Below, piece by piece: positions 12,828-37,386 of a stretch of 38,486 nt of DNA (position 1 is its first letter; the number at the start of each line of letters is the position of its first letter). Under the pieces are notes generated by a model. The model searched no databases. It was not told the origin of the DNA and saw only the letters and a list, made by a program, of their open reading frames with translations. The stretch is taken from NCBI GenBank assembly GCA_018623135.1, contig JAAZVW010000012.1, positions 1 through 38,486 on the forward strand, given 5' to 3'. Both the position numbers and the translations under genes were made by a program. The DNA is from Pseudomonadota bacterium (GTDB lineage Bacteria > Pseudomonadota > Alphaproteobacteria > UBA1280 > JAAZVW01).

Positions 12828-12884
12828 ATTAATGGTGCTTTCCATAAGTAACAAGGTTTAGGATAAATTAAGGGGAATTTTCTC

Positions 12885-13511: not shown

Positions 13512-13544
13512 TAGTTAGTCTATATAACTAAGGTGTTTTTAGGA

Positions 13545-15731: not shown

Positions 15732-15743
15732 GGGTAATCTAAA

Positions 15744-16829: not shown

Positions 16830-16831
16830 GA

Positions 16832-17938
16832 ATGAATGTAGTTCTTGTTTCACGTAGTGGTGTTCAGTATGTAGATGGTAGCCGCGGCGCTATTGAGGCG
16901 TTGTTTGTTCCGAGTAAGGAAAAAACACAACGTTTTAATGACCTGACAACAATTAACAACAGTACAGTAAAAAATCGTTACGGAGACCAAACAGCAACGC
17001 CTTTATGGCGCCAGTTGGGTAATGCGGTATATGTATACGGTGTTATGCCTCATGATTTGGTTGAAAAGCGCGAAGCTGTTTCGGTTTTTTTACCTGAGGA
17101 TTATATTCCGCTAGGTTCTAATACGTACTATTTTGTTTTTGGTGAAAAATGGGTTGTGCATGGTACGCGTGAGATAGCAGAAGACGGCACGGCTTATTGG
17201 GTACACTCTCGTGTAGATGTTGAGGAAACTGGTGCAGCCAATATGGTGATTGAATCTGTTTCTGAGCGGTTGCTCCAACATACAGAAAATATTACGGTTG
17301 CTGTTCAAGGCAATGCAGATGCACTTTCTCAATTACAGCAAAGTTTAAAAACATTTAATATTGAGCCTGTACGCTTTGACTCTTTGCCTAAACATAAAGA
17401 AGCGAAGCCGTTATATGAGCACCGAGATCATAGTTTGATGATGATGATTCTTGTGATGTTATCAGGTATTGCTTTTTCTGTTTTTGCGTTCCAAACCTTT
17501 TTATCTTATATGGATTTACAAAGCGCCAGAAATGATATGCGTGCTTTAGAAGAGCGTATTGCAGCACAGCAACAAAAAGTTTTAGGCGGGATTCGTAAAC
17601 CTAAAACGATTATGAAATATTTAAGAACATCTATGGATATTCAGCCTTCTGCTTTATTACATACAGCTTCGGATGCGGCCTCTGCTTTTGGTCGTTTGGA
17701 ATCTATTGAGCTTTCGAATGAAGTGGAAGACACTAAGAAAAAAAGACGTACACGTAAATCAAAAGAAGTAACGAAAAAAATTACAGCCTTTGTTTCTGTT
17801 GTGAATAATGCCCTTTTGATTGATCAAGAACGCTTAGCGCAATCTGTTTTAGAAACACGACCTGCGGTAAGATCTATTGAGCGTGTTGATTCAGGTGGTG
17901 AGCGTATGCAATTGAGTATAGAGGTACAGGTAAAATGA
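16832..17938 (+). CDS. PilO-like (IncI/type IVb) pilus accessory membrane protein
   Basis: Single internal TM 'SLMMMILVMLSGIAFSVFAFQTFL' followed by coiled coil; position after GspF-like gene; N-terminal 'VVLVSRSGVQYVDGSRGA'. Confidence 0.5.
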   Translation: MNVVLVSRSGVQYVDGSRGAIEALFVPSKEKTQRFNDLTTINNSTVKNRYGDQTATPLWRQLGNAVYVYGVMPHDLVEKREAVSVFLPEDYIPLGSNTYYFVFGEKWVVHGTREIAEDGTAYWVHSRVDVEETGAANMVIESVSERLLQHTENITVAVQGNADALSQLQQSLKTFNIEPVRFDSLPKHKEAKPLYEHRDHSLMMMILVMLSGIAFSVFAFQTFLSYMDLQSARNDMRALEERIAAQQQKVLGGIRKPKTIMKYLRTSMDIQPSALLHTASDAASAFGRLESIELSNEVEDTKKKRRTRKSKEVTKKITAFVSVVNNALLIDQERLAQSVLETRPAVRSIERVDSGGERMQLSIEVQVK

Positions 17939-18435
17939 TGACAAGATCTACAACCCGTAACATACTTTTGCTTATGACATTTGTGCTTGTTGGTGGTGCT
18001 TTGTTTATGAAAAACCAAAACACGGTTATTCAAACCGATACACAGGCTGTTGAAAATAATATTACGCGTTTAAGAACACAACAAAAGCAAGCCTCTCAAG
18101 TATCTACTGATGTTGCGCTTTTGGATAAGCGTACAATGAACGAGAAAAACGCAACGCGTTTGGGTATTTTAAGGTATTTAGGTTTAGAAGAATCAGATTT
18201 AGATTATGAAACCCGTGCTGTTAACGTGCGTAAAGTAAGCGGCACAAACTTATATACACGTTCTTTTAGTATTAGAGGCCGTATGAGCTATGCAGATGCA
18301 TTAGAGCGCATTGATGCGTTTAATGCTTCTGAAAAAATTGTGATTGATCGTATTTTACTGACACCTGGTGAAGGTTATGGTGATATTGTGAATGTAGAAA
18401 TAGGAGGTGTGTTCTATGGCTTGGATAAGAAATAG
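17935..18435 (+). CDS. Bitopic pilus assembly protein (GspM/PilO-like topology)
   Basis: ATGA overlap with upstream stop; N-terminal TM 'NILLLMTFVLVGGALFM' plus coiled coil. Confidence 0.5.
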   Translation: MMTRSTTRNILLLMTFVLVGGALFMKNQNTVIQTDTQAVENNITRLRTQQKQASQVSTDVALLDKRTMNEKNATRLGILRYLGLEESDLDYETRAVNVRKVSGTNLYTRSFSIRGRMSYADALERIDAFNASEKIVIDRILLTPGEGYGDIVNVEIGGVFYGLDKK

Positions 18436-19051
18436 TCTGCCTGTATTGGTGGCTTTTGCTGCTTTTTCTACAGTAGGTCATGCCGAAGTTTTATGGCGTG
18501 TTCAAAACCAAAATCCAGCTGAAGCGATGGAGCTTTATGTAGACCAGATTACGCCATTTCCGGTACAAGAAGCGCCGCGTGTTGTAACACCACAAACAAC
18601 ACGTCAGCAGCCACGAGTATCGCCTGAAATTCTTATGCGCCGTAAACGCGCAATGGAAGCGGCGAATTTGCTTTCTCAGGTACGTGAAATTTTAAATGAT
18701 AAAAAAGCTTTTACGCCTGATGTTTCTGCTCTTTCTGTAGGTGCTATTATGCAAAGTGAGCAAGAAAATGGTGAACCAGCGCTTATGGTTTTATTAAATA
18801 ACCAATGGCGTAATCAAGGTGAGAAGATTGATGTACCTATTGTGTCTGTAGATATCATGGTAGATTTAATTGGTCGTATTGAAAGTGTTGATCAAAACCT
18901 TGCAGCAGCAGTTCAGGAAGAAGTTGAAGAGCGCATGAATGAATTTGGTCGTATGCAGTTACAAATTTCTTCTATTGAAGAAGATGGTGTTATCTTCAAA
19001 AATACTAATGGCGAAGATGTTGTCATTAATTTTGTGCGCTCTCGCTGGTGA
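18416..19051 (+). CDS. Periplasmic pilus assembly protein, PilP-like by position
   Basis: AGGAGGT at 18402-18408, ATG at 18416; signal peptide 'SLPVLVAFAAFSTVGHA'. Assignment mainly from synteny. Confidence 0.5.
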   Translation: MAWIRNSLPVLVAFAAFSTVGHAEVLWRVQNQNPAEAMELYVDQITPFPVQEAPRVVTPQTTRQQPRVSPEILMRRKRAMEAANLLSQVREILNDKKAFTPDVSALSVGAIMQSEQENGEPALMVLLNNQWRNQGEKIDVPIVSVDIMVDLIGRIESVDQNLAAAVQEEVEERMNEFGRMQLQISSIEEDGVIFKNTNGEDVVINFVRSRW

Positions 19052-19101
19052 CCCTTCCCATAATATATTAAATACACGGGGTATTTAAGGAGGCTTCTTT
19101 T

Positions 19102-20388
19102 ATGCAAGCATTATTTTATATGGTGTTTTTTGGGTTACTTTATGCACTTATTGGCTTTGTAACCTTTGGCGCCACAGAAACAACAGCAGAACTTACGCAA
19201 CGTCATATTCAATCTGTTAAAAAGATGTTTAAAGATGTGGAAGTTGCTGTGCTTGATAATTATTTGCGTGAGAACATAGATATTGCATCTTTATTAAATG
19301 ATGATGGTGTTCTAGATCCTACATTACTCACCCCTTATTTAAGTTGGTCAGAAACTGATTTAACACGAAGCCCGTGGAATACAGATATTATTGTTTGTCA
19401 GAACAAACTGGAAGCACCAGATACGACAGCCGCTTTTAGTGGTAGTATGACCTCTAACCAGCGTTCTACTCTTTTATATGCCGATGAAAATGGTTATCTA
19501 GCGGCGGATACTTATACCTTTATTTTAGCGGCAACAGGCCCTAACCGTCGGTTTGATGTGTTAGAAGATGGTACAAGTACGCTTGATTCATTGTGTGGCG
19601 CAACAGGGCAGCTGTTAGATATGCAATCGACTCTTGCTGCAATCGGTAATACAGATTCAGATGATATTATCCATATTTTTAATACAAGACCTGCGCAAGA
19701 GCGTATCGCAAACGATTATATGCAAGCTGAAAATAAAATTTTAGAAGTCATTTATGAAGGCTATGCTCAGAGATTTTTAGAAGCTAGCAATGCTTCATTG
19801 ATTGGTGGTTATGATTATTATGTAAATCAGGAAAATGCAAATATAGGTTCTAATGTAAATCAGGCAATTTCTTCTGGCGATTATGTTCCTTGTTATCAGG
19901 ATTTTACAGCAGCTTATTGCCATGCCGATACGGCAAATTACTATAATGATACCTATTTGAAGCGTTATTCTGTGAATAATTATACGAATAGCTGTGCTGT
20001 TTCGAACCCGAATACAGACCTATCTCTTTCAGAGGCTCTTATGTTTTGTTATTTGGCAAGTACGAACCAGAATACAAGAGATGATGGTACCCTAGCAGGT
20101 ACGCCAGTTCCAAAACCAAATGTTTTAGGTTTTGATGATTTGCGAACAGAAGTTAATTCTAAATATAATTTTGATGTTGAAGAAATTTGTAACAATCCAT
20201 TTGGTGATTGTAGCGCAAGTGTTTATACATTTAAACCGCTTGAAAAGCTGGTAGATAGCACAACAGCAGATCAAAGGCCTATGTATAGAACTGTTTTAAC
20301 GCTTGAGACAGGGCAAGGGGGCTTTGTTTCTCAAGACTGGCAAGTGTACCGAGAAGTGTACATAGATGCCTTGAATATTTTAGAATAA
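19102..20388 (+). CDS. Membrane-anchored extracytoplasmic protein in pilus operon, function unknown
   Basis: AAGGAGG RBS; N-terminal TM 'ALFYMVFFGLLYALIGFVTFG'; no prepilin cleavage motif seen; several cysteines. Confidence 0.55.
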   Translation: MQALFYMVFFGLLYALIGFVTFGATETTAELTQRHIQSVKKMFKDVEVAVLDNYLRENIDIASLLNDDGVLDPTLLTPYLSWSETDLTRSPWNTDIIVCQNKLEAPDTTAAFSGSMTSNQRSTLLYADENGYLAADTYTFILAATGPNRRFDVLEDGTSTLDSLCGATGQLLDMQSTLAAIGNTDSDDIIHIFNTRPAQERIANDYMQAENKILEVIYEGYAQRFLEASNASLIGGYDYYVNQENANIGSNVNQAISSGDYVPCYQDFTAAYCHADTANYYNDTYLKRYSVNNYTNSCAVSNPNTDLSLSEALMFCYLASTNQNTRDDGTLAGTPVPKPNVLGFDDLRTEVNSKYNFDVEEICNNPFGDCSASVYTFKPLEKLVDSTTADQRPMYRTVLTLETGQGGFVSQDWQVYREVYIDALNILE

Positions 20389-20401
20389 GGGGAGAAGGAT
20401 C

Positions 20402-21451
20402 ATGCGTATTAAAGGGTTTTCTTTATTTGAAATGATATTGGTATTGGGTGTGCTTATTGCGCTTATGACCATGATCTTTCCGGATGTAACAACTTTCTTG
20501 AATTATCAAAAGGAAAAGAATGAGCAACTTTCTATGCTGCAGATTAAGCAAGCGATGAATGCTTATGCTAAAAAATGCCGTAGTTTACCACCTGCAGATA
20601 TTACTGGGGGAACAGCGCCATATGATGTCTGTGGCCGCTCTTTTTCGGATGTATCTGCCGAGGGCACACTAGAATTTAAATGGGATAGTCAGACTGATGA
20701 GGAGATTCCGGTTTTTGCTAAAGAACTTTCCTCTGTAAGTACACTTTCTGCACGTGATTTCATGTTTGATGCTTATGGTAATCCGCGTACTTATAGGTTT
20801 GGTGTGTTACAAAAAACATTTAGAAATGGGCAAATGGATGTGTATTACGCAACGATTACATCAAATGGTCGTGATAAACAGGAAGATTCATCTACAGACC
20901 CAGAAACAGCAGCAACGCCAGATTGGCAGGAAGATTTTGGTTTAGATCCTATTGCGGATATTGAGCTCTATGCAGGTTATACCTCTGTAAATGATGATGA
21001 AGTTATTAAGTTTACAGATGAGGCTTTGAAACTTGAGCTTTATGATGAGCGTGTTGCTCAGCTGAAACGCATCGGACAAGCTTTAGATAGTTTTGCCTAC
21101 GGTATGCGTAGCCAAGATTTATTAGATGGTGTGGATAGCCCTGAACTTATTTATTATCCACGCTCATTACCTGATGATGCAACAAACCCAAGTTCGGTTT
21201 ATTACGCTAAGGTATTAGAAGCCATGACAGATGTTGGCTTGGGCAATGTTGTGAACACTGCAAATGTTGATGATGTTGAAGCCTTGATGCGCCTTATTGG
21301 CTTGCCAGAATCTTATGCTTATGATCCTGTTACAGGTGAGCGCATTGGTTATGTTTCTAACCCAGATGCAGCAAACCCATGTACAGGTAGTGGTGCAACT
21401 GAGGCACCATTCCCGCCAATCCGTGTTTCGGCTATTGATGCATGTAACTAG
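20402..21451 (+). CDS. Large prepilin-like protein (minor pilin)
   Basis: Class III prepilin motif 'MRIKG/FSLFEMILVLGVLIALMTMIFP' with Glu at +5; C-terminal Cys pair. Confidence 0.8.
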   Translation: MRIKGFSLFEMILVLGVLIALMTMIFPDVTTFLNYQKEKNEQLSMLQIKQAMNAYAKKCRSLPPADITGGTAPYDVCGRSFSDVSAEGTLEFKWDSQTDEEIPVFAKELSSVSTLSARDFMFDAYGNPRTYRFGVLQKTFRNGQMDVYYATITSNGRDKQEDSSTDPETAATPDWQEDFGLDPIADIELYAGYTSVNDDEVIKFTDEALKLELYDERVAQLKRIGQALDSFAYGMRSQDLLDGVDSPELIYYPRSLPDDATNPSSVYYAKVLEAMTDVGLGNVVNTANVDDVEALMRLIGLPESYAYDPVTGERIGYVSNPDAANPCTGSGATEAPFPPIRVSAIDACN

Positions 21452-21463
21452 GAGGCATGGGCT

Positions 21464-22486
21464 ATGAATAATATACGTGGTTTTACGCTGGTTGAAGTGA
21501 TTATGACTCTGGGGATTCTTGTTGCTGTTTTAACAATGGCAATTCCTGATATCTCTGGCTTGTTTACGCAACAAAAAGAAAAGATAGATGAGTTGAATAT
21601 TGCGGATATTAATCGTGCGCTTTCCGCTTATGCTAAAGACAATAAAAGATTGCCAGATCCAGACCCTGCGGTGGATGACCCTGATTGGGCAGATGAGCTT
21701 GCAAAATATTCTAAATTAAGCGCAGATGAAATGCGTACAGACCCGTTTGGTACAGAGCGTATTTATGAGATGTATGAGGACACGAGCCAAGGTTATAGAC
21801 AAGGTGACCTGAATATTTTTTATGCAACTGTACTTTCGTTAGGGGAAAATAAGGAAAATGAATCTTACGTAGAAGGTGAAGGTTTAGACGGAAACCCTGT
21901 ACAAACATGGTCAGATGCGACAGCTCTTGCAAACTTAGATGAGAAACAAGCTTTCCAGAATTATAGACCAGAGGGTGACGATCTTGTTGCTCGGTTTAGT
22001 GACTTTAACCTAAAAACTGAGCTTTATGAATTGCGCCTTGAGCGCATGGGGCAAATTGTGCAAGCAATAGAAGCCTATGCAGCGGATTTGTATAATAAGG
22101 CAGATCAGGCTGCTCAGGCGGCTTGTACTACGAGTGATTGTGGTTTGCCTGCACGTATTTACTATCCGCGCTCAGGAGACCCTGTTTTGCAAGATGAGAC
22201 GAATACAGATGTGCCAGCGAATCAGGTGTATAGTCAGTATAATCTAGATGAAATGACGAATATTATTGGCAAAGCATTATTAACTCCAGGCGATTTAAAT
22301 GATATGAATCTGCTGATGCGTTTACTTAATTTGCCAGAATATTATGCGCTAGACCCTGTTACTGATCAGCCATTTTATTATTATTCAAATCCGAATCCTG
22401 GTAATTTGTGCGATGAGGGGCGTATTCAGGCACCCTTTATGCCATTGGTTTTAAGTGTGGTGGCACCTTGTACAGCGAATTGGTAG
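21464..22486 (+). CDS. Large prepilin-like protein (minor pilin), paralogue of the preceding gene
   Basis: Prepilin motif 'MNNIRG/FTLVEVIMTLGILVAVLTMAIP' with Glu at +5; shares 'YYPRS', 'LMRLL.LPE.YA.DPVT' and a C-terminal Cys pair with the upstream ORF. Confidence 0.8.
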   Translation: MNNIRGFTLVEVIMTLGILVAVLTMAIPDISGLFTQQKEKIDELNIADINRALSAYAKDNKRLPDPDPAVDDPDWADELAKYSKLSADEMRTDPFGTERIYEMYEDTSQGYRQGDLNIFYATVLSLGENKENESYVEGEGLDGNPVQTWSDATALANLDEKQAFQNYRPEGDDLVARFSDFNLKTELYELRLERMGQIVQAIEAYAADLYNKADQAAQAACTTSDCGLPARIYYPRSGDPVLQDETNTDVPANQVYSQYNLDEMTNIIGKALLTPGDLNDMNLLMRLLNLPEYYALDPVTDQPFYYYSNPNPGNLCDEGRIQAPFMPLVLSVVAPCTANW

Positions 22487-23019
22487 GCTTTTTTGCCAGA
22501 GTATCAGACAGGTTAGAGTTTATAGATTTATTTCTTAACTTCTTTGAACAGGAATATACTTATATTGTGTTGTTGTTCTGGTTGGTTTTTGGTTTGGTTT
22601 TTGGCTCTTTTTTAACCTGTTTGATTTATAGGTTGCCACGGGGTCTTTCTATTGTATCACCCTCAAGTCAGTGCCCAAAATGTTCGCATAAGCTTATGGT
22701 TCCTGATTTAGTCCCTGTTTTTTCTTATCTTTTATCGCGTGCAAAATGCAGGTATTGTGGTGTAAAAATTGCTCCTAAATACCTGTATGTTGAGCTAACT
22801 GTTGCTTTTTCAGCACTTATGGTCTTCTTTGTTATGCCGTTGTCTTTGGCAAGTTTGTTTATGTTTTTTACATGCTTTATTTTCCTCTATGCCCTGTTTT
22901 GCTGGGTTTTTGAGAGGTTTTTATCTGTTAGAGCACTTATATTATTGCTGTTGTTCATCTTTCTTACTTTATTGTTAAAGTGGCATACTCTGTTCTTTGT
23001 TATTAAAATGTCTGCATGA
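22468..23019 (+). CDS. Prepilin-peptidase-like protein with only the N-terminal (DiS_P_DiS) domain
   Basis: 'VFGSFLTCLIYRLPRGLSIVSPSSQCPKCSHKLMVPDLVPVFSYLLSRAKCRYCGVKIAPKYLYVEL' matches the PilD N-terminal cysteine domain. No GxGD and no Asp in the following helices. Start codon uncertain (no ATG; TTG at 22468). Confidence 0.7.
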   Translation: MYSELVGFFARVSDRLEFIDLFLNFFEQEYTYIVLLFWLVFGLVFGSFLTCLIYRLPRGLSIVSPSSQCPKCSHKLMVPDLVPVFSYLLSRAKCRYCGVKIAPKYLYVELTVAFSALMVFFVMPLSLASLFMFFTCFIFLYALFCWVFERFLSVRALILLLLFIFLTLLLKWHTLFFVIKMSA

Positions 23020-25227: not shown

Positions 25228-25285
25228 TAAAGCACTTCTTCTACTTAAGGGGGGTGTGAAAGGGTATAATAAAGGAGAAAGTTTT

Positions 25286-25630
25286 ATGAAACTTAAATTA
25301 TTTATGGCTGTTTTAGCTCTTGCTGTTGTGGCTCTTCCTGACTTGGCTTTAGCCCAGTCTACAGGTGGTACAGGCACAGGCGCTGGCTCAAGTCTGAAAG
25401 CTGATATTGTTGATGTATTTAAAGGTGATATTGGTTTCTTAGTAGGCTTAGGTGTTTCGGTATTTGGTTTATACATGTGGCTTATTAAACAAGCTTCATG
25501 GGGTCTAGTAATGCTGATTGCTGGTGGTCTTATTACAGTATTCCCGAACCTATTTAAAGGTATTCAAGAAGGTGCTCAAGACGCGTTTGGTGATACAGTA
25601 GGTACTACAAACGTGGTTAACCCTGAGTAA
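25286..25630 (+). CDS. T4SS pilin (TraA/VirB2-like)
   Basis: Signal peptide ending 'LALA/QS'; short mature protein with two hydrophobic helices 'IGFLVGLGVSVFGLYMWLI' and 'GLVMLIAGGLITVFPNLF'; followed by TraL/TraE/TraK-like genes. Confidence 0.75.
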   Translation: MKLKLFMAVLALAVVALPDLALAQSTGGTGTGAGSSLKADIVDVFKGDIGFLVGLGVSVFGLYMWLIKQASWGLVMLIAGGLITVFPNLFKGIQEGAQDAFGDTVGTTNVVNPE

Positions 25631-25654
25631 TTGGGTTTATCACATAAAAGTCAC

Positions 25655-25684
25655 AGGGCTTAAGGTAACTTAAGCCCTTTTCTT
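25655..25684 (+). terminator. Rho-independent terminator directly after the T4SS pilin gene
   Basis: agggcttaag-gtaa-cttaagccct, 10-bp perfect stem followed by ttttcttt. Confidence 0.8.
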
Positions 25685-25739
25685 TATTTTCAGCCTTGGT
25701 TATAATATGATAACAGCATCTATTTTGGAGTTTTTATAT

Positions 25740-26012
25740 ATGTTAGGTGAAATCAGACAAGTACCACGTAATATTGATAAACCAAACCGTAAGGCAGAAT
25801 ATGGCTTTGCGGGGCTTGTTGGTTGGTACATACCTTTATATGTAACAAATAACGCCATTATGGCATTGGCTTTTTTTGCTATTATTTTATATTCGGTAAC
25901 TAAGCTTACAGCAGGTAAACCAGAAGGTGCCGCGTATCGCTTGGCGTATCGTTTTTTGGCGTTAGGTAAAATGGTGCCTAGCCCTAAACAAACAACTAAG
26001 TTTGAAATTTAG
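25740..26012 (+). CDS. traL: TraL-like conjugal transfer membrane protein
   Basis: 'VPRNIDKPNR...PEGAAYRLAYRFLALGKMVPSP' fits the TraL pattern; located between pilin and TraE-like genes. ATG at 25740 preferred over 25707. Confidence 0.65.
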   Translation: MLGEIRQVPRNIDKPNRKAEYGFAGLVGWYIPLYVTNNAIMALAFFAIILYSVTKLTAGKPEGAAYRLAYRFLALGKMVPSPKQTTKFEI

Positions 26013-26025
26013 AGGAGACGTTTAA

Positions 26026-26655
26026 ATGAATTTTATCGCCCGTGCAGGTGGCATGTTAGATAGTGCTTGGCGTTTAGCAGGTATTCTTCTTATTTTATTA
26101 GTTGTTGTTTTTGTGCTCCTGTTAAATTCTATGGAAAAAAATAGCCAGCTTAATACCCAGCTGGAATCTATTCGTAATAAAATGAATGTGTATGTGGTAC
26201 CAGGTGGAGAAGGTGGTGTTTACGCCCCAAATAAGGCAGAACTGTTGCTGCAAACATTTTCTGATTATATAACACAAAGCCTTTTAACGTACACGCATTA
26301 TAATCTTGCGAACCAATATTCTGAAGTACGTCAATTTTTGGCACCGCAGCTTGAATCACGTATGGCTCCTAAGTTTAGAGAGCTTGTGCAAAGATCAAGC
26401 GCAGACCAACGTTCTGCTATTTTTATTCAGGATCGCACAAAGCTTACATTTAAATCTCTTTCAGAAACAAATGGTCGTGGTAGGTTATTTGAAGTGCGTG
26501 TCTTTGGTGAACAGCGTTACCTTATTGCAGGTCGTGAAGTTGCTAAAGAACCTTTGCAAGTAACAATGCGTTTGCGCCAACAAGCACCGTCTAAAACAAA
26601 TCCGTTTGGATTTATGGTAGAATCTTACGTTGCTGAAGTGACAAAGAATAGATAA
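26026..26655 (+). CDS. traE: TraE-like (VirB8-like) bitopic protein
   Basis: N-terminal TM 'LAGILLILLVVVFVLLL', about 209 aa periplasmic domain, gene order TraL-TraE-TraK. Confidence 0.7.
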   Translation: MNFIARAGGMLDSAWRLAGILLILLVVVFVLLLNSMEKNSQLNTQLESIRNKMNVYVVPGGEGGVYAPNKAELLLQTFSDYITQSLLTYTHYNLANQYSEVRQFLAPQLESRMAPKFRELVQRSSADQRSAIFIQDRTKLTFKSLSETNGRGRLFEVRVFGEQRYLIAGREVAKEPLQVTMRLRQQAPSKTNPFGFMVESYVAEVTKNR

Positions 26656-26706
26656 TAGAGTAGTATACTTATTGTTAACAAAATCATAGTGATAAGAATT
26701 AAAAAT

Positions 26707-27426
26707 ATGTACATAAAGAATTTCATTGCAGTTGTTATTGTCCTAGCTATTTCAGTACCTGCTTTTGCAGATACCCTTACATGGAAAGGCCCTAGGCATC
26801 AGCTTGGTATAGGTCTGTCTCAAACAGATGTTGCTCATATCGAGTTTCCTGAAGATATTATTAACATCACTGTTGAAGATGAACAGTATGTAGATATTTT
26901 ACGTGTACAAGGTTATGGTCAACGTGCTTTCCGTATGAAATCGATGGAACCACGTATGGCAACGCGTGCGTTCTTTACTGGAGTAAGCCAAAAAACTTAT
27001 ATTGTTATTCTAACAACAGACTTGCCTTACCGTTCTTTTACACAAATTGTGGATAGCTCTTCTGTTGAAAAAGTAAAAGAAAAAATTGCTAAGAAGTTTA
27101 CAGAAAAAGATTTTTTACGTTCTATGGCATTAGATGAAGAAATGCCAGGTGTATTGCGTGAAACGCATGTTATTCCTAACTGGTTTGAAGGTGCAGGTGT
27201 TTCTTTTGAGTTAGCTGAAGTTTGGCAAAGCACAAAGATGACAGGTTTGGTGGTGCACGCACATAACTTACGAGACCGTGAAACAGAGGTGAATATTCCA
27301 GCAATTACAATTCCACGTACAGATGAATGGGGTAAACTTACGCATGCAGCTATGGAAAACATGCGCTTAAGACCAAAAGGTATTGCAGGCGATACAGGTG
27401 TTCTATTTTTAGTCTTTAAAAGATAA
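26707..27426 (+). CDS. traK: TraK-like secretin-type conjugation protein
   Basis: Signal peptide 'NFIAVVIVLAISVPAFA'; beta-rich domain 'VAHIEFPEDIINITVEDEQYVDILRV'; follows TraE. Confidence 0.65.
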   Translation: MYIKNFIAVVIVLAISVPAFADTLTWKGPRHQLGIGLSQTDVAHIEFPEDIINITVEDEQYVDILRVQGYGQRAFRMKSMEPRMATRAFFTGVSQKTYIVILTTDLPYRSFTQIVDSSSVEKVKEKIAKKFTEKDFLRSMALDEEMPGVLRETHVIPNWFEGAGVSFELAEVWQSTKMTGLVVHAHNLRDRETEVNIPAITIPRTDEWGKLTHAAMENMRLRPKGIAGDTGVLFLVFKR

Positions 27427-27444
27427 CCTGTTAAAAATTAATGC

Positions 27445-27476
27445 AAAGCCGTCAGTTTTCTGGCGGCTTTTATTTT
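27445..27476 (+). terminator. Rho-independent terminator
   Basis: aaagccgtcag-tttt-ctggcggcttt stem (one G-U wobble) followed by tattttt. Confidence 0.75.
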
Positions 27477-27532
27477 TGCTGAAGCACATAAGCTTTACAG
27501 GTAATTTAAAAAGGCCACAAAGGGTTTATTTT

Positions 27533-28264
27533 ATGAAAAGACTACACTTAGCTTTATTTACATTTTTCATGTCGGTGCAGCAGGCTTTCGCTGGACAGGC
27601 TTTTGATGAAAATGTTGCGAGACAAACATGGGATGTGATGAATCGTATCGAATACCGTGATTCTATCCCAACAGGTTTACTGCAAGCTATGGGTTTGGTA
27701 GAATCAGGCCATAAGTTTGGTGGTAAATTTATGCCTTGGCCTTATGCGGTAAATGTGAACAAAACTGTTTTTGAAACTTATACCAATAAAATTGAAGCGC
27801 GTGATGAATTAAATTATTTGGCAGAATCTGGTTTTGATCGTTTTGACCTAAGGTTAGATGGCGAGCGTAAGTATGGTTTAACACGTAGGGCAGCACTGAA
27901 TATGATTCGTAATTTTGATGGGGAGATTATGATCCGTGCTGCAGGTATATCTAAAAAATTTGAAACAAAAGAAAAAGCTGTTTCTTTTGTGCAACAGATG
28001 AAAGACCTAGGTATTACAAACATAGATGTGGGTGTAATGCAGGTGAATTTAAAATATCATGGTGATGCTTTTGCGAGCTTAGATGATGCTTTTGACCCAT
28101 ATACAAACGTAAATTATGCTGTAACTTACCTCATGCAACATCGTAAAAGCCGCGATTGGTGGGGTAGTGTCGGGCGTTATCATAGCGGAACAGGCTTGCA
28201 TGCGAAGCGATATGTGCGTACTGTGTACGATATGTATCAACTTGTGCACGGTATGAGAGGCTAA
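27533..28264 (+). CDS. Lytic transglycosylase (SLT family, VirB1/PilT-like)
   Basis: Signal peptide; 'GLLQAMGLVESGHKFG' catalytic Glu region; 'NIDVGVMQVNLKYHGDAF...FDPYTNVNYAVTYL' SLT signature; ATG at 27533. Confidence 0.8.
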   Translation: MKRLHLALFTFFMSVQQAFAGQAFDENVARQTWDVMNRIEYRDSIPTGLLQAMGLVESGHKFGGKFMPWPYAVNVNKTVFETYTNKIEARDELNYLAESGFDRFDLRLDGERKYGLTRRAALNMIRNFDGEIMIRAAGISKKFETKEKAVSFVQQMKDLGITNIDVGVMQVNLKYHGDAFASLDDAFDPYTNVNYAVTYLMQHRKSRDWWGSVGRYHSGTGLHAKRYVRTVYDMYQLVHGMRG

Positions 28265-29983
28265 ATGTTAACAGAACAGCAATCGGAATTTTTATCTTCT
28301 GATCAATCTACTGTTGTTATAGGTAAACCTGGAACAGGTAAAACCTATGCGATGATTTCAAAAATAGAGGCATTACTGCATGCGGGGGTTAAACCTTCGG
28401 AAATTGCAGTGCTTGCCTTTTCTTTGCGTAGCTTATCTGTACTTAAAACACTCATTCGTAATCGTCTTGGTGATGTTGTTGAGGATTTGAAACTTGGCAC
28501 ATTGCGTGATTTTTCTATGAATGCATTAGAGCGTGTGCAAAACGAATCCCCTATGCTTGCTGAACATTCTTTAGTCAGGCGCTATCTTCGTCAGGCTATG
28601 AACGATGTTGGCTTTAAAGGTACAGTGCAAGAGGCGGAGCATATTATGCGCCAGTTTAAAGGGCGCGGTCAAAAGCCTCAGGGTAAAGAGGCATACTATA
28701 ACTTATTTTTAAGCTATAAGGCTATTTTGGATCAGAACCATATTATGGATCGCCATGATGTGGTGCGTAAGCATATTATTGGTATGCGTAATGATGTCTT
28801 ACAGCCTGTGGATGTGAAGTACTTATTTGTTGATAATGTACAAGATGCAACGCAAATTCAGCTTTTATGGTTTGTAGATCATCATCAAGCAGGGGTTAAG
28901 GTTTTTGCTTTGGGTGATGATGATCTGTGCGTTTATGGGCAAGATGGTGCCATAGGTGCTGAGGCGCTACAAAAACTAGCGGATAATTATGAGTTTAAAC
29001 AAATTATGTTTGCGCAGCAATTTCGTTATGGGCTTAAACTTGAGCGTCTTTCAGATCCGCTTTTAATGAGTGTGCAAAATCGTATAGAAAAGCCAGTACA
29101 TATTTCTGATAAATTAAAAACAGAAGTTGAGCTTCAGCATTTTGCTGATGAGAATATTGAAGAAGCTTTTGTGTTAGAGCGTGTGGAAGAATTTTTGCGT
29201 AAATTCCCGAAAGAGCGTATCGGTGTTATTGTAAGGCATGATTTGCAAGGCCGTAAACTTGAAAGATTGTTGCGTGAAAGTTGTCATGGACGTATTGGCT
29301 TTTTGGGAAGATCTTTATGGGAAATGCCTGCTGCACTTGCGATGTTTGATTTGTTAGAGGTTTTGTTGAATCAGGCGAATAATGCTCAGCTTAAAAATGT
29401 GCTTATGCAGTTTGGTGTGCCGAGTGGCGTTTTAGATAATTTATTTGTATCTGGCCTTAATGCGCATAACTGGCTTGTTTCGGGTGGGTTTAATGCACAA
29501 GAGGTGCTACCTGAAAACCAGGCTGAATCTTTTGATGTAATTCAGCATCAATTCTTAACTTATTATATGGCGATGGAAAAAGTGGGCGTGAAGTCTGTTT
29601 TTAAGGCTTGTGCCTATGACTTGCTAGAACAGATGGATGATGATGACAAATTAGACGCATTGCATGCCTTAGACCAGTTATTGCATATTAAAGGTAAAGT
29701 CTCACAGAGTCTCAAAATGCTGAAAAATTCGGTTGAGCCAAATCCGTTGGCGCAGGTGGTGTTAGCTTCGGCGCGTGAGATTAGAAATCTTGAATTTGAT
29801 CATGTGATCATGCCATACCTAAAAAGAGGTATTTATCCTTACCCTTATAAAGTTTTGGGTGAAAATATCGAATCCGAACGTAGGCTGTTTTATTCTGCGA
29901 TGACAAGGGCAAAGAAAAAGCTTGTTTTATGTCATGCAGGTGAGGCAAGCCCTTATCTTAAAGAGATCGAAGAGCTTATTTAA
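28265..29983 (+). CDS. UvrD/Rep-like superfamily 1 helicase-like protein with altered motif II
   Basis: Motif I 'VIGKPGTGKTYAMI'; motif Ib 'LGTLRDFSM'; motif II 'LFVDNVQDATQIQLL'; motif III 'VFALGDDDLCVYG'; motif VI 'ERRLFYSAMTRAKKKLVL'. Confidence 0.8.
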   Translation: MLTEQQSEFLSSDQSTVVIGKPGTGKTYAMISKIEALLHAGVKPSEIAVLAFSLRSLSVLKTLIRNRLGDVVEDLKLGTLRDFSMNALERVQNESPMLAEHSLVRRYLRQAMNDVGFKGTVQEAEHIMRQFKGRGQKPQGKEAYYNLFLSYKAILDQNHIMDRHDVVRKHIIGMRNDVLQPVDVKYLFVDNVQDATQIQLLWFVDHHQAGVKVFALGDDDLCVYGQDGAIGAEALQKLADNYEFKQIMFAQQFRYGLKLERLSDPLLMSVQNRIEKPVHISDKLKTEVELQHFADENIEEAFVLERVEEFLRKFPKERIGVIVRHDLQGRKLERLLRESCHGRIGFLGRSLWEMPAALAMFDLLEVLLNQANNAQLKNVLMQFGVPSGVLDNLFVSGLNAHNWLVSGGFNAQEVLPENQAESFDVIQHQFLTYYMAMEKVGVKSVFKACAYDLLEQMDDDDKLDALHALDQLLHIKGKVSQSLKMLKNSVEPNPLAQVVLASAREIRNLEFDHVIMPYLKRGIYPYPYKVLGENIESERRLFYSAMTRAKKKLVLCHAGEASPYLKEIEELI

Positions 29984-30123
29984 AAGCGGCTGTTTTTACA
30001 GGTTTCAAAAGCGTGTCTTACGCATCACAACCACCAGAAGTGGAATGCTGTCTGATCTTTTAATTTATTTTCTGACAGTGTATAGTGTTTTCTGTAATTA
30101 TATGTCAACAAAAGGGTGATGCT

Positions 30124-32229
30124 TTGACAACAGCAACAGATTCTAACAAAACAGTTACAGAAAAAGAGTTAGATAAGCTAAGAGCGAAAGATAAAGGCTA
30201 TCAAATGGCCAAGCAGGACGTTGTAAGCTATATGGATGAACGCCGTAAGGTGATTACAAATATTGCTTGGCAGTTCCGTTTAGACCCTGAAGAGCTGTTT
30301 CAGGAAGCTTTTGAAGTTGTGTTGACCTGTTTAAGGGATTACCAACCTGTTTATGAAAAAAATGATGGGTCTCAGGTTTCTGTAAAATTTAATACCTTCT
30401 TTGGTTCGCGTATTGAAGGTAGAGCGATGGAGCTTAGAAATACAGACCCAGAATATAAGGCAAGGCAAGCCATTACAGATGGCATGTCTGCTGAAGAAAA
30501 AACTTCTTTTAGAGAAAATCCACCCCTGCTTGTACAGCATATAGACCAAGATACCGTGATGAGAGAGCACCTTTTAGGTGAAGTATCAGAAGCTAAAGAA
30601 CAGCAGGATGTTGGTTTTAGAATTGGGCGAGATACCTTTTTTGACCGTAAGTTGACAGAACTGATTTCTAAAGAAAAAGATGAGAAAAAGCAAGCCATGC
30701 TTATGCATGTAAAAGTGGGCGGTATTTATAACTTCCAAGAAATTGCTTACCATTTTGGTGTGACAGATTCTCGTGCATCGCAAGTGATGAATGAGTTGAT
30801 GGATGCGTTTTATGTGCAACGTATTATTGATGGTGATAGAGAAGCTGTTGCCTATGACTTTAAAAAACTTAAGTTTAACGATAAGCGTATTAAGCGTTTA
30901 GTTGGTGAATCTTTAGTTGATGTTGATGAGGAAAACCAAAAAGATATTTTAGCCATTTTCAAAAAAGATTTTGCAACAATTGATTTTGAAAAACCTAAAG
31001 CCAAAACAGAAACGATTGAAAAAGCTAAAACACCTAAGAAAAAAGTACAAGAGCCTATTGTGCCGCCTGCCTATGAAGAGGTGTTTACGAAAGAAGAAAA
31101 TGAGGCCTTTCCGCTTGTTTCTGTTGGTATGCAATCTATTGACCGCTTAAAAGAGCTTGTGATTGATTTTAGGGATGGCGAAGATAAGGAATCTTTTGAG
31201 GAATTTGTGGAGTCTTTTGACCCTGATTCGGCCTTGTTCCCTGCGGTTGTTGATGCGCAAGGCTATGTAATTGATGGTGTAAGGCGTATTAAAGCGGCTA
31301 AAGCCAAGGGTAAAACTGAGTACCTATGTATTATTCGTGATTTTAAAGACGAATATGATAAGAAACTTATGCGTATTTTGTTGAATTATCGTTTACATAA
31401 TGTGGATAAAATTGCGCTGTACCATTACATTAAAGGCTTAAATGCGCTTGGTTTGAGCCAGCAGAAAATTTCTGATTTAATAGATGTAAGCCGAACAAAT
31501 GTGCTTGTGTATGCTAAAGTACGCGATAAGGCGGCACCAAAAATGCGTGCGCTCTTTGAAGATGGTTTGATTCAGATTACAAATGCAAGTTCTTGCACAG
31601 ATTTACCGAATGAAATACAAGATGCTTTGGCTGATTTTATACGTCGTCATGGGATTGCTTGGTCTAAGGGAAGTCGTTTTAATAAGGTATATTTAGCAGC
31701 AAGTGAAAACCGCTTGGAAGCTTTTGAGGCGCAAGAGTTCCCTGATCAGGCGTATCAGGAAGCACCGCAGACAGAAAACGAAAAAGATGCCAAGCCTTCT
31801 TCGGCGCAGGCGAATAAACGTTTAGCTCTTCTTGAAAAACAATTGCGTACACATGAAATTGCCTTAAAAGATGCAGAAGTTTGGGCAGCGCAGCGTGAAT
31901 CTGTGATTAATAGACAAAATACAGAATTGCAAGATGTACGTACAGAGCTTGATGATACAAAGCGTCAACTTGAGGCGGCGGAGCTTGCTTCTATTGGCAC
32001 GAACGAAAAAGTTATTGAAACAGAGCTTAAGCAATTGCGTGCATTTTATGCAATTACGGAGCGTTTATCTGGTGCGAATCAGGCTGTAAAACAAGCGAAC
32101 AAAGATGTATTGAAATTAGATATGCGTAGAAGCCAGATTAACGAACTTCAGGATTTAATTGAAAGCACGGAAGAGAATTTAAATAAATTACGTGTTGAAG
32201 TTGTTAGGCGTTCTGGTAAGCGTGTTTAA
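30124..32229 (+). CDS. Sigma-70-like (regions 2 and 4) + ParB-like domain + coiled-coil fusion protein
   Basis: 'ITNIAWQFRLDPEELFQEAFEVVLTCLRDYQP...VKFNTFFGSRIEGRAMEL' (sigma region 2-like); 'NFQEIAYHFGVTDSRASQVMNELMDAF' (sigma region 4 HTH-like); 'LFPAVVDAQGYVIDGVRRIKAAKAKGKTEYLCII' and 'LGLSQQKISDLIDVSRTNVLVYAKV' (ParB-like domain and HTH). TTG at 30124 is a likely start; 30085 is the ORF-track start. Confidence 0.75.
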   Translation: MTTATDSNKTVTEKELDKLRAKDKGYQMAKQDVVSYMDERRKVITNIAWQFRLDPEELFQEAFEVVLTCLRDYQPVYEKNDGSQVSVKFNTFFGSRIEGRAMELRNTDPEYKARQAITDGMSAEEKTSFRENPPLLVQHIDQDTVMREHLLGEVSEAKEQQDVGFRIGRDTFFDRKLTELISKEKDEKKQAMLMHVKVGGIYNFQEIAYHFGVTDSRASQVMNELMDAFYVQRIIDGDREAVAYDFKKLKFNDKRIKRLVGESLVDVDEENQKDILAIFKKDFATIDFEKPKAKTETIEKAKTPKKKVQEPIVPPAYEEVFTKEENEAFPLVSVGMQSIDRLKELVIDFRDGEDKESFEEFVESFDPDSALFPAVVDAQGYVIDGVRRIKAAKAKGKTEYLCIIRDFKDEYDKKLMRILLNYRLHNVDKIALYHYIKGLNALGLSQQKISDLIDVSRTNVLVYAKVRDKAAPKMRALFEDGLIQITNASSCTDLPNEIQDALADFIRRHGIAWSKGSRFNKVYLAASENRLEAFEAQEFPDQAYQEAPQTENEKDAKPSSAQANKRLALLEKQLRTHEIALKDAEVWAAQRESVINRQNTELQDVRTELDDTKRQLEAAELASIGTNEKVIETELKQLRAFYAITERLSGANQAVKQANKDVLKLDMRRSQINELQDLIESTEENLNKLRVEVVRRSGKRV

Positions 32230-32242
32230 CCCCTGTCAGGAG

Positions 32243-32271
32243 TTGAAAGTTGCTAGGCTTTTGCCTATATT
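32243..32271 (+). promoter_or_regulatory. Sigma70-type promoter upstream of TraH-like gene
   Basis: TTGAAA (32243-32248)-N17-TATATT (32266-32271), identical hexamers and spacing to the 25189 promoter. Confidence 0.55.
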
Positions 32272-32334
32272 CATAATACTATACTAGGGTATTGACTAAT
32301 TTTTAAGTTGAGCGGTAGCGCTAAGGGGCAAAAG

Positions 32335-34149
32335 ATGAGTGAAAAGATGTTTCATACTTTCTATAAATTATTTCTATTAGCTGCTTTTGTGGCTGTGCCT
32401 AATGTTGTGTTTGCTGAAGATGCGGCTGAGGTTTGCCAAATGTCGGATGTGGTGAAAATTTATGACACCAATAACGACTGTAAGTTAAGTTATGAAGAAC
32501 AAGATAATATCCCAGTTGCGGAAAAATCAGTTATTTTAACATACCATATGTTTGATGAGGATGTTGCAGGGGTTGAAGCAGGTCCTGTTAGGCGCCAAAA
32601 CCAAGCGATTAATAATATTCGTAGTCAATTAACAGCAGATGAAGAAATTGAAATTGGTAGCTTCCGAGCGAATGCTGGGTTTTCTGCCAATAATTTAGGT
32701 GATGGCTGTAGCCCTGATGATATTAAAAATCTGATCCAGGCTGAGCTTAATGGTATTGGTAACTTTGATGGTAAAACAATGCTAAAAGAGTTCCGTACTT
32801 ATGCTGAAACGGCGTTGGCAAAAGAAGCGTTAACAATGCTTTTCAGTTCTCCTGCGATTTCTGCAATGATGGATGGTATTAAAGCGACAGCTAATGCTCG
32901 TATGGCCATGGCTAAAAACAGCTGTAATGCCCGTGAAATTATGGAAGCAGCACGTAATGAAACAGATACGATGCTTAAAGAAGAAGCGATTGCTTATTGT
33001 GAAAAGCATATTGACGGTACATTAGCGGCTTCTAAAAAACCAAGCTCTGTTCAATTTGGTTCGTACAGCACTAAAGGTTCTGGTATTGATAAAACGCTCG
33101 TTTATCCGAAAGATTGTAAGGACCCTAAAATTTATTCTCAGTATGCAGATAATTATTATTACAAGTTTAACTATGCGACAGATTTGCATACTCAGCTTTG
33201 TTTTTCTGATGATCCGCAACAGGTGAAGTGTAACAACTGTCATCAAACGCCGTCATCTTGCCCGTATAATGGTGTTCAGGCGAACTCTTGTACGTATAAA
33301 GACCCTGTGGAGTCTTGTCCATGGTTGAAGTTTGTAGCTAATGTTAAGGCTAATGTAAGTACAGAAGGTGGTGTAAGTAAGCATGGTCGTGTGTTTGAGC
33401 CTAATGTAATTCGTTTTGGGGCGATGTCGGGTGTATCTGCTTATACGGCGAGCATTTTAACGCTTGTGAGTGATGAAATGAGTAAATACTACAATGCAGA
33501 TGAGGCAGGTTTGAAATCGGATGTGGATGAGGTTATTGCACGACAAGAACTTACGGATATGAATGGTAATTCATTAGGCAAAGTTTCTGACTTTTGCCCA
33601 CGTAATGTGGCGACACCTGTTGAAGATATGTTAGAAAAACTAGTTCCAGATCCTGATTCAACAACTTCGTCGAGCTCGGCTTCTGTAACAAATGCTGATT
33701 TTTCTAAGGTAACGAAGCAGGCGGCGATTTGCATGGTGTATTTAAACTTTAACCAAAAATTCTGGTTTGAGTTGATGGATAAACTACCAATGAATCAGGT
33801 GCTTAAAGTGAGTCGTGATATTAGTGTGGTGGCTTCTAGTTTGGTTGCTGAAAGTATTTTAGAACGCTTGAAATTGCGTTTAGATACAATTATTGCACGT
33901 TCAAATGCGTCATCTGAAGTAAGTGATGAAAAAGTGGCTCCTGCGGTTATTAGTAACATGAGGGAGCAAAAAGTTGCTTACCAAGCAGATTTGGAACGTG
34001 AGCGTATTGCACGTAAAAATTTAACATATGCGGAAAGTTTCTCTGATATTACGGAACATGTACGTAAAGTAATTAGAGAATATGAAGAAAAAGAATTAAT
34101 GAGAGAAGCGGCTAAAGCAAGGGCGCGTGCGCTGATTTCTAGCCAATAG
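32335..34149 (+). CDS. TraH-like exported Cys-rich protein
   Basis: ATG at 32335 after AAGGGG; signal peptide 'LFLLAAFVAVPNVVFA'; helical/coiled C-terminus; directly upstream of TraG-like gene as in F. Low direct sequence support. Confidence 0.4.
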   Translation: MSEKMFHTFYKLFLLAAFVAVPNVVFAEDAAEVCQMSDVVKIYDTNNDCKLSYEEQDNIPVAEKSVILTYHMFDEDVAGVEAGPVRRQNQAINNIRSQLTADEEIEIGSFRANAGFSANNLGDGCSPDDIKNLIQAELNGIGNFDGKTMLKEFRTYAETALAKEALTMLFSSPAISAMMDGIKATANARMAMAKNSCNAREIMEAARNETDTMLKEEAIAYCEKHIDGTLAASKKPSSVQFGSYSTKGSGIDKTLVYPKDCKDPKIYSQYADNYYYKFNYATDLHTQLCFSDDPQQVKCNNCHQTPSSCPYNGVQANSCTYKDPVESCPWLKFVANVKANVSTEGGVSKHGRVFEPNVIRFGAMSGVSAYTASILTLVSDEMSKYYNADEAGLKSDVDEVIARQELTDMNGNSLGKVSDFCPRNVATPVEDMLEKLVPDPDSTTSSSSASVTNADFSKVTKQAAICMVYLNFNQKFWFELMDKLPMNQVLKVSRDISVVASSLVAESILERLKLRLDTIIARSNASSEVSDEKVAPAVISNMREQKVAYQADLERERIARKNLTYAESFSDITEHVRKVIREYEEKELMREAAKARARALISSQ

Positions 34150-34188: not shown

Positions 34189-37100
34189 ATGGCAAATTTA
34201 AATGATTATGTATTAGGCTACGAGCAACAGCACCAGTTTGCGGTTCTTGCTGGCTTTACGAAACAGTCTATTTTGTTTGAGCACCTTTCAACCGGTGATT
34301 TGCAGAATTTTATATATATCTTTGGTCTTATCGGCTGCGCTTACTTATTTTTAAATCCGAATATGTGGAAGGCGACAATTCTTGCGCCGTGGCTTCTGTT
34401 TTTATTGATCTTCCAATCTGGTAAATTAGCTGACCCGCTGTTTTTTACGACATTTGATCTTAGCTCGGGTGGGTTAGGTAACAGTTATTTATCTTGTGCG
34501 GCTATTCCTGAAGGGACATCTCCGGGTGTGCATGTGGATGCTTCTGGTAAAGTTGTTAATAAATGCGTGCAAGGTGGTGGGGGTATGTCCTCTAATCTTT
34601 CTGGGGCGAAGAATCCAGAAGATAAGGTATATGTTGGAGGTTTAAGGGAATACATGGAAGATTCTTCTGGTGATGTTATTGCCTATGTGCCAACGGGTAT
34701 TACTTCTATTAATAGGCGATTGAAAGATGTGAGCACACCTTTATCTTCTATTAATGCTTATACACCACAGCTTGTGATTATTGATGCTTTGGTGCGAGCA
34801 AGGACTGTGGTGACAGACTCTTTATTAGATGGTCGAATGAACAAGATTATTGGTGCTCAAGGTGCGGCGATTCGTGCTATGAAGACATTCCAGCTGCATG
34901 ACCAGCGCCCTTATTTAGAGTCTTTAATTTTTTCTGCCGCTTGTAATAAGTTTGAAAATTCAGGAGAAATCGCTTTTTTATCTCCTAATTCTGCTAAAAA
35001 ACTTCATAAAGATGAATATCAAGCAATGACAAATTATAATTTGTCTGTAGAAGATGTGCTGATGGCTCAGCAAATGTATGATCGTTTGATTCGTTCTAAG
35101 GACGATGATTTGGTGCGTCGTATGCGTACTTATGGTATTCGCCCTCCTGTTATATCTGTTACAGATCCTGATGATTTACCATTAGAGATTAATATAGACC
35201 GTATTAATGCGGTTGCAGGTCCTTTTGTTGGCTCTTTGATGAGCGATGAACCTTCTATTAATAATCTTTTTGGCTTGTTGTCAGACCCAGGGGCTTATGC
35301 GCTTAATAGTAGAGATGATTTTGAGTCATTTTTGTATCATTCACCATTTTTGAGAACGGTTTTCTATGAAGCGGGTTCGAGCTGGTGGAGTTCTTCTCCG
35401 ACAACGGCGCCTGAAGATGAAGAGGGATTTGAATCTGCCTTTTCCATGAGATTGCAAGCTTTTAATAAGTATATGGGTGATAGTTTAGGTGCGGATGCTG
35501 CTGAAGGCTTATTGAAAATGCTAAGCACCGTAAAAGTGAATGTGGATAATAGGGTTAATTTTGGTTCTGCAGATTATGTACCTTATCGTATGGATGCGGA
35601 TCCTAATGACCCTGCTGGTGCAGGTGGCGGTAATGCTTATAGTACATTGCAAAGTATAACATCTAGTTATAGTACTGTTTCTGGCGTTGAAGGCCGTACC
35701 TGTGCGGATTATCATGAATATGTGTATGAATTGCAAAGTAATGCTATTAGATACCAAGTTGCCTTATATGGCGCCTTGGCAACGGCGTTGGACCCTGAGC
35801 AGATTTTAACAACAAATAAAGCGTTAAACTTTATTGCTGAAGAGATGCCTGGTTGTTTGGAGCTTTCTAACTTAGGTTCGGCAGCAACTTTTGTTGCAGG
35901 TGGTGGTGCTGTTGGTTCGGCCATTAAATGGGGTACTGTAAAGGCTTCTACTGCACTTGTTGGTGGTTCTGGCTTGATGTTCCATGATATTTTACAGCTA
36001 GGTAATACTGGCGGTGCTTTTGCTTTAGCACAAGAATCTGCGGATTGTAATATGGATGCGCTTTCTGATTTTGTCATTAACACAAGTATGAACCAGACGC
36101 AGATTCAGCGTATGGCGTTAGATCAACGCGCTGCTGAGGGTGAAAATGTATATATGGATGATGGCATTTCTAGTCGAGTGAGGCAAATAGGTGCCAAAAT
36201 TGGTAGTGAGCTGTTTGAAACAGGTTTACCACAGCAAATTTACAATGCGTTTAATGGTTTTGCGACAGGTTCTTTTGCGCAACTTATGCCGCAGCTCGTT
36301 GCTTGGTTAACTGTAGCTGTAATTATGATTACGCCATTTATTTATATGATGGGGCTTATTGCGCCGGCTTGGGGACTTTCGATCTTCTTAATGCCAATTA
36401 TCACCATTGTGTATTTGCAATCTGTACAAATTATGTATGTGATTGTGCAAGTGGTGTTTGATGGTATGGATACCTTATTTGGTGCGGCCGAAGGTAATGC
36501 GGGCTTTGCTGCTGTATATGACATTGTTGTCGGTTCTGTGATGACAATGGTATTTATTTTAACAGCATTTATGCTCTTTAGCTTAGGTGATGCAGGTGCT
36601 TTGGTTAAACAAATCTCTGGTAAGGCCGATAGTGGTGCAACGATTGACCATAAAGAAGCCCTTGCTGGTGGTATTGTTGCGGCAACCGCTATAACAGGTG
36701 TTACCAAAGCAGGCATGGCTGTGCCTGGTGCGTTAAAAGGTGGCGTGCAAGGTTTGGGTAAAATGCAGCAAAACATTAAAGATGGTAGTTTGAACCCAGT
36801 TAAAGGATTGCAAAATAACTTTAACAAAGGACGCATGTCTGCTATTGAATCGAGAAAAATGGTTGACGGAAGTGATGTAAGGCAAAAAGAACGTGAGTTG
36901 CGTCGTGATGCGCAGTTTGCTGAACATCGTAACCAAAAGCTTCAGATTTCAAGCGATGCGCAGGCTGTTGTTAAAAATGCTGGTGAATTTGGTAGTGGTT
37001 TTAAAGGGACAGACCCTGCAACAGGTCGTGCGTTTGATCTAGGTACGGCGGCTGATAAAGTTGTTGGTAATATCCACAGAAATGATAAACTGAATGATAA

Positions 37101-37386
37101 GCAAAAAGAAAAAGCAATTGTTGCTTTGGATAAAGCAGTTCAGGAGCATAAAGTTACTGAAAAAGCTATTCAGAACTCTAATGGCTCTGTGACACAAGAG
37201 ATGCCGAGTCAGGTCTTTAAAGATGTAGCGAAAGCTTTGAATATGCAAACAGAAGAGCTGTTTGATTCTAAAGATATTCAGATGAATGGCTCTAAGGCTT
37301 CTATCTTCTTGAAACAGCCAAGTGTTGCTGCTAAGAAGAAATCTCCTGGCAAAAACAGGCGTAAGAAAAATAAAGGTAAAGCTTAG
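34189..37386 (+). CDS. TraG-like mating-pair stabilisation protein
   Basis: 1065 aa; N-terminal TM 'IYIFGLIGCAYLFL', central TM cluster 'LVAWLTVAVIMITPFIYMMGLIAPAWGLSIFLMPIITIVYLQSVQIMYVIVQVV', soluble C-terminal region; follows TraH-like gene. Confidence 0.6.
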   Translation: MANLNDYVLGYEQQHQFAVLAGFTKQSILFEHLSTGDLQNFIYIFGLIGCAYLFLNPNMWKATILAPWLLFLLIFQSGKLADPLFFTTFDLSSGGLGNSYLSCAAIPEGTSPGVHVDASGKVVNKCVQGGGGMSSNLSGAKNPEDKVYVGGLREYMEDSSGDVIAYVPTGITSINRRLKDVSTPLSSINAYTPQLVIIDALVRARTVVTDSLLDGRMNKIIGAQGAAIRAMKTFQLHDQRPYLESLIFSAACNKFENSGEIAFLSPNSAKKLHKDEYQAMTNYNLSVEDVLMAQQMYDRLIRSKDDDLVRRMRTYGIRPPVISVTDPDDLPLEINIDRINAVAGPFVGSLMSDEPSINNLFGLLSDPGAYALNSRDDFESFLYHSPFLRTVFYEAGSSWWSSSPTTAPEDEEGFESAFSMRLQAFNKYMGDSLGADAAEGLLKMLSTVKVNVDNRVNFGSADYVPYRMDADPNDPAGAGGGNAYSTLQSITSSYSTVSGVEGRTCADYHEYVYELQSNAIRYQVALYGALATALDPEQILTTNKALNFIAEEMPGCLELSNLGSAATFVAGGGAVGSAIKWGTVKASTALVGGSGLMFHDILQLGNTGGAFALAQESADCNMDALSDFVINTSMNQTQIQRMALDQRAAEGENVYMDDGISSRVRQIGAKIGSELFETGLPQQIYNAFNGFATGSFAQLMPQLVAWLTVAVIMITPFIYMMGLIAPAWGLSIFLMPIITIVYLQSVQIMYVIVQVVFDGMDTLFGAAEGNAGFAAVYDIVVGSVMTMVFILTAFMLFSLGDAGALVKQISGKADSGATIDHKEALAGGIVAATAITGVTKAGMAVPGALKGGVQGLGKMQQNIKDGSLNPVKGLQNNFNKGRMSAIESRKMVDGSDVRQKERELRRDAQFAEHRNQKLQISSDAQAVVKNAGEFGSGFKGTDPATGRAFDLGTAADKVVGNIHRNDKLNDKQKEKAIVALDKAVQEHKVTEKAIQNSNGSVTQEMPSQVFKDVAKALNMQTEELFDSKDIQMNGSKASIFLKQPSVAAKKKSPGKNRRKKNKGKA

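Follow-up and report, generated by a model that had tools for sequence, protein, structure and literature searches.

A conserved chromosomal fusion of a sigma-70-related module to a ParB-type fold, linked to a hybrid type IV secretion and pilus gene cluster

The window analysed here, a 38,486-nucleotide contig of a Pseudomonadota bacterium (JAAZVW010000012.1, assembly GCA_018623135.1), encodes a 701-residue protein that joins a sigma-70-related module with regions 2 and 4, a ParB fold with its helix-turn-helix (HTH), and a C-terminal coiled coil, in that order. The fusion is conserved and vertically inherited, co-occurs with a hybrid type IV secretion system (T4SS) and type IV pilus apparatus, and has conserved CTGACA sites in front of its gene. 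These sites and the gene linkage suggest that the protein regulates both its own gene and the apparatus. We give about an even chance to the specific reading that we favour: a transcription factor for the apparatus, autoregulated, whose sigma module would be carried by a nucleotide-gated ParB clamp and would engage RNA polymerase.

The open reading frame (30124..32229, forward strand, as are all the domains below) runs without interruption from TTG 30124 to a TAA stop ending at 32229, and the fusion protein is confirmed as real. An alternative in-frame start exists at GTG 30085; an AAAGGG about 8 nt 5' of TTG 30124 favours the latter. The original prediction had placed a sigma-70-like part, a ParB-like domain and a coiled coil in this one frame, and profiles and homologues bear out both the architecture and the domain names. 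The sigma region 2-like block (residues 24-116; 30193..30471) and the region 4-like HTH (residues 168-262; 30625..30909) were delimited with TIGR02937, hhalign and alignment column counts, region 4 also having sub-threshold Sigma70_r4 matches. These are followed by a ParB_N-like nucleotide fold (residues 325-424; 31096..31395; TIGR00180, PDB profiles, Foldseek and column counts), a ParB-type DNA-binding HTH (residues 425-535; 31396..31728; Foldseek and column counts), and three long helices in the AlphaFold secondary structure that form the coiled coil (residues 560-698; 31801..32217). On the window protein, every Pfam match stays under the gathering cut-off of its model, so the sigma call leans on whole-superfamily and profile–profile evidence.

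Full-length relatives at 39-56% identity were present in all six genomes examined of the order to which the window belongs. We found such relatives at 19 loci on named contigs, all from MAGs and mostly labelled Alphaproteobacteria or Proteobacteria, with a MarineProteo1 bin included; five of the 19 (L008, L009, L014, L020, L024) duplicate genomes already counted. A sample of the class contained the sigma module in 8 of 387 genomes, every time within a frame of at least 650 residues, and a sample of 399 genomes across the phylum contained it in the genome of the window only. Homologues with the two halves as separate genes, which the original prediction had named as grounds for abandoning the fusion, did not occur among the relatives found.

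The gene belongs to the chromosome and has been inherited vertically. Pairwise identities between sigma-ParB proteins track those of RpoD (r = 0.98) and the two tree topologies agree; the distribution is neither patchy nor horizontal. Genes resembling rph, rdgB and hemW, read by eye, lie near the cluster in G202 and G087. The earlier description of the protein as element-encoded is therefore unsupported, given a chromosomal gene, its universal presence in the examined genomes of the order, and a tree like that of RpoD. A mobile element was considered and rejected on the same six-of-six presence and RpoD-like tree, together with the lack of any match in a plasmid collection or in viral contigs. 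A search of the window for repeats returned chance-like pairs only.

Homology to sigma factors was detected along the whole N-terminal module. TIGR02937 (sigma70-ECF) matches residues 43-226 of the window protein with regions 2 and 4 in order (E 4.6e-4), at 24.3 bits against a curated cut-off of 42.9. With the N-terminal domain excised, the same model matches 16 of 18 aligned members (best E 1.1e-8), and FliA/WhiG models match 10 of 18. Sigma70_r4 gives sub-threshold matches in 14 of 18 members, and Pfam Sigma70_r2 is absent among the matches listed. An hhalign comparison of the N-terminal profile with real sigma factors, drawn from relatives, scored 45.3, against at most 21.1 for 60 column-shuffled profiles, 11.9 for the reversed profile, 24.2 for the ParB part and 12.7 for the coiled coil; regions 2 and 4 each score separately. 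When the N-terminal alignment was searched by itself against PDB profiles, it gave no match. AlphaFold modelled this part with weak to moderate confidence (pLDDT 69, pTM 0.42), and the model's Foldseek matches are mostly sigma factors, the top ones included, yet at E 0.03 or worse. The module has the homologous regions 2 and 4 of the sigma-70 superfamily in the superfamily's order and stays below the curated family cut-offs; the unrelated helical fold that the original prediction had allowed for gave way to sigma homology.

The sigma module is the best conserved portion of the protein, with mean pairwise identities of 0.68 in region 2 and 0.74 in region 4, compared with 0.41 in ParB_N and 0.40 in the coiled coil. 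Column counts over the 18-member alignment show invariant region 2 residues at Q60 E61, F89-x-T91-F92, R96 and A101-x-E103-x-R105, and in region 4 the stretches HFGVTDSRASQ and NELMDAFY are invariant in 18/18. In sigma factors, the QE of region 2.2 serves core binding and the FxT[FY] of region 2.3 serves melting. Both hallmarks, as QE and FxTF, are invariant in all members aligned, and the retention of these signatures suggests that the module may contact RNA polymerase.

The second half is related to ParB/Spo0J, with both the nucleotide fold and the HTH. TIGR00180 (ParB) matches residues 347-460 (E 3.6e-10) at 39.9 bits, below its curated cut-off of 58.45, a PDB profile search returned Spo0J/ParB (E 1.3e-5), and Foldseek with the full model returned Noc, ParB and KorB (E about 4e-6). 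Pfam ParB_N gives a best E of 0.0044 across the 18 aligned members. The P-motif GxxR (G385, R388) is invariant in 18/18, as are S456, R457, N459, V462, Y463 and K465 of the HTH. Boxes I and III diverge, with FRxx and (L/V/I)NxR in place of the canonical motifs (ENxQR for Box III), so the identity of the nucleotide is not predictable.

F-type-like T4SS genes and type IV pilus/T2SS-like genes share one chromosomal cluster in the window (31-37386) that is conserved across several families and looks like a secretion or DNA-exchange machine; no relaxase stood out in it. On the forward strand it includes a TraD/VirD4-type coupling ATPase (4606..6003, Pfam), a pilus/T2SS-like block with PilP-like, secretin, T2SSE, T2SSF, pseudopilin and prepilin peptidase genes (9856..23019), and a T4SS block with TrbC pilin, TraL, TraE/VirB8, TraK and a lytic transglycosylase (25256..28264, supported by synteny). 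Next come a UvrD/Rep-like helicase directly upstream of sigma-ParB (28265..29983, Pfam and synteny) and, downstream, TraH-like (32308..34149) and TraG-like (34189..37386) proteins, assigned by position, size and synteny without a Pfam match. The order prepilin peptidase, two unknowns, TrbC, TraL, TraE, TraK, SLT, UvrD, sigma-ParB, TraH, TraG is kept with small variations. A conserved 451-residue protein without a Pfam match, encoded on the reverse strand (8380-9732), occupies the same place in G202, G005 and G087 at 28-37% identity, and a reading frame after TraG (37462-38486) runs off the contig end.

TraK and TraD were both present in 9/9 sigma-ParB genomes tested. TraK occurred in 9 of the 387 class genomes, including all 8 with the sigma module; the contig of the ninth stops within UvrD, the gene that sigma-ParB would follow. 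The apparatus genes can be split: the TraD-type ATPase of G005, G002 and G003 is encoded either on a separate contig or at a distance from the main cluster, and in two genomes of one family sigma-ParB and the tra genes are on different contigs. The UvrD-like helicase is divergent and always directly upstream of sigma-ParB where the cluster is intact, and it is possibly a functional partner.

The intergenic sequence in front of sigma-ParB carries a sharply conserved hexamer. In the window, a CTGACA half-site on the forward strand (30072..30077; TTTTCTGACAG) is the proposed autoregulatory or loading site, with counterparts in 18/18 loci. Across 16 loci with a UvrD/sigma-ParB gap, CTGACA occurs on either strand in 15, with 27 occurrences against 1.5 expected, compared with 0 to 2 in other classes of upstream gap and 5 against 1.0 expected in the gap between sigma-ParB and traH. 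The hexamer was picked by inspecting the sequences, and the shuffle control allows for this choice by taking the maximum over all hexamers, which reaches 8 of 16 loci at most. The full tally of 18/18 loci and 31 upstream half-sites adds L014 and L021, where the upstream gene differs, and the UvrD 3' end in L008. Persistence of the sites beside a different upstream gene indicates that they travel with the sigma-ParB gene. In the MarineProteo1 bin (L014, 614-3692), two methyl-accepting chemotaxis-like genes rather than UvrD precede sigma-ParB, and TGTCAG sites are kept. Many loci have a TGTCAG/CTGACA inverted pair whose two half-sites start 22-24 or 34-35 bp from each other, and L013 has a perfect palindrome, TTCCTGACATGTCAGGAA.

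A second half-site in the window, on the reverse strand (32234..32239, TGTCAG on the forward strand), lies 3 bp upstream of the TTGAAA -35-like box of a candidate traH operon promoter read from the sequence (TTGAAA-N17-TATATT; 32243..32271, forward strand). A half-site just upstream of this box recurs in L008, L009, L023 and L024, at 2-3 bp in the window, L009 and L024 and at a similar distance in L008 and L023. The original prediction had tied the protein to transfer-type genes, and this link is supported by co-occurrence and by sites at both its own and the traH promoters. The position of CTGACA relative to candidate -35/-10 boxes differs among loci, a pattern more in keeping with a loading site or an operator than with an element of the core promoter. 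A role as a fixed -35 element was considered and set aside, being plausible in GC-rich loci and contradicted by varying placement in others.

Under the favoured reading of an autoregulated transcription factor, the protein would dimerise through its coiled coil, and the dimer would recognise CTGACA half-sites 5' of its own gene and, in the clade of the window, also beside the traH promoter. The ParB fold would bind nucleotide and act as a gated DNA clamp or switch, and the sigma-derived module would bind core RNA polymerase. Loading at CTGACA would then determine transcription of both the T4SS operon and sigma-ParB itself, with the sigma module tethered to the ParB-type clamp; the sign of this regulation we likewise infer.

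The main rival, second in our ranking and possible if doubtful, is a sigma-derived repressor: the ParB clamp at CTGACA would silence its own gene and the traH operon in the manner of KorB on RK2, RpoD would transcribe, and the N-terminal module would serve only for DNA binding or for blocking RNA polymerase. Site placement suits this reading, being variable, with sites that overlie the -35/spacer in L013 and fall near the start codon in L009 and L024, as do the KorB fold matches from Foldseek, KorB being a known CTPase clamp repressor (PMC11790492). The candidate traH promoters are also housekeeping-like (TTGAAA-N17-TATAAT), so RpoD may transcribe them. A pure repressor, however, would have no need of region 2, in which the core-binding QE and melting FxTF are invariant in every member. 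Returning to a transcription factor, a bolder form would make the sigma factor a covalent part of a nucleotide-gated ParB sliding clamp that loads at CTGACA, slides or stays near the T4SS and pilus promoters, and delivers RNA polymerase. We hold this form to be rather unlikely; if true, it would give bacteria a self-contained equivalent of the late transcription that depends on a clamp in phage T4.

It is quite improbable that the protein acts in DNA processing or partition, marking a site for the UvrD helicase and T4SS DNA handling rather than for transcription. The ParB fold, the ever-present TraD-type coupling ATPase and the adjoining UvrD gene wherever the cluster is intact would all agree with such a factor, which nonetheless leaves the sigma module unexplained. 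The sites lie 5' of the protein's own gene and form no origin-like array of parS-like sites; they are scarce genome-wide, the inverted pair occurring once in G202, twice in G087 and five times in G005, with the single G202 pair and one of the two in G087 located at the sigma-ParB gene. MarineProteo1-type genomes moreover have the gene away from UvrD and the tra genes and keep the site. The partition role raised in the original prediction is also unsupported, as no parA was recognised by BLAST and Pfam among the immediate neighbours (UvrD, traH) and a separate, canonical ParB is encoded elsewhere in the genome. A joining of two genes through assembly or frameshift error has practically no chance of being correct, because the single-frame fusion recurs across independent assemblies of many families.

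Roles for ParB-type clamps outside the segregation of chromosomes are coming to light. Lists of fused Sigma70 domains also exist, so far with no mechanism attached. The sigma-ParB family suits tests of mechanism: it numbers about twenty orthologues, its cis-site is sharply conserved, and it comes with a defined candidate target operon and an apparatus that is itself conserved. Should the sigma module prove active, a nucleotide-switch clamp would be gating a sigma factor, and the literature cited here describes no control of that form.

The original statement that no sigma-ParB fusion had been described is out of date, since a December 2025 paper describes fusions of ParB-CTPase folds to Sigma70 domains (Kaljevic et al., PNAS 2025, PMC12704722). 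Those fusions, like the window family, combine the two in one bacterial protein, and ATP binding was shown for the tested Sigma70 fusion, the negative controls being mutants of the GxxR arginine; the main text of that paper gives neither architecture nor neighbourhood for it. Its list of domain fusions is Pfam based, whereas ParB_N in the window protein falls below the Pfam cut-off (17.5 versus 26.3 bits). The window family has both sigma regions, a ParB HTH, a long coiled coil, a T4SS link and a site of its own; the family itself, its two-region sigma module, the T4SS link and the cis-site are new here.

ParB clamps are known as transcription regulators from KorB (PMC11790492) and BisD (PMC7423338). 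KorB of plasmid RK2 is likewise a ParB-family DNA-binding clamp regulating transcription and a structural match, but is plasmid-borne and lacks a sigma module, and its targets are OB sites, bound together with KorA. BisD, the ParB-domain activator of ICEclc, resembles the family in activating transfer-system genes, but depends on BisC, is not described as having a sigma module and resides on an integrative element. FliA/WhiG-type and ECF sigma-70 factors share regions 2 and 4 in order, and region 4 of the window family resembles that of FliA; unlike them, the family has an insertion between 2.2 and 2.3, a divergent middle, a fused ParB and coiled coil, and scores below family cut-offs. In phage T4, sigma-like gp55/gp33 are coupled to the sliding clamp gp45. 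That system would work alike if our model holds, with an unrelated clamp and separate proteins, so that the likeness is one of analogy only.
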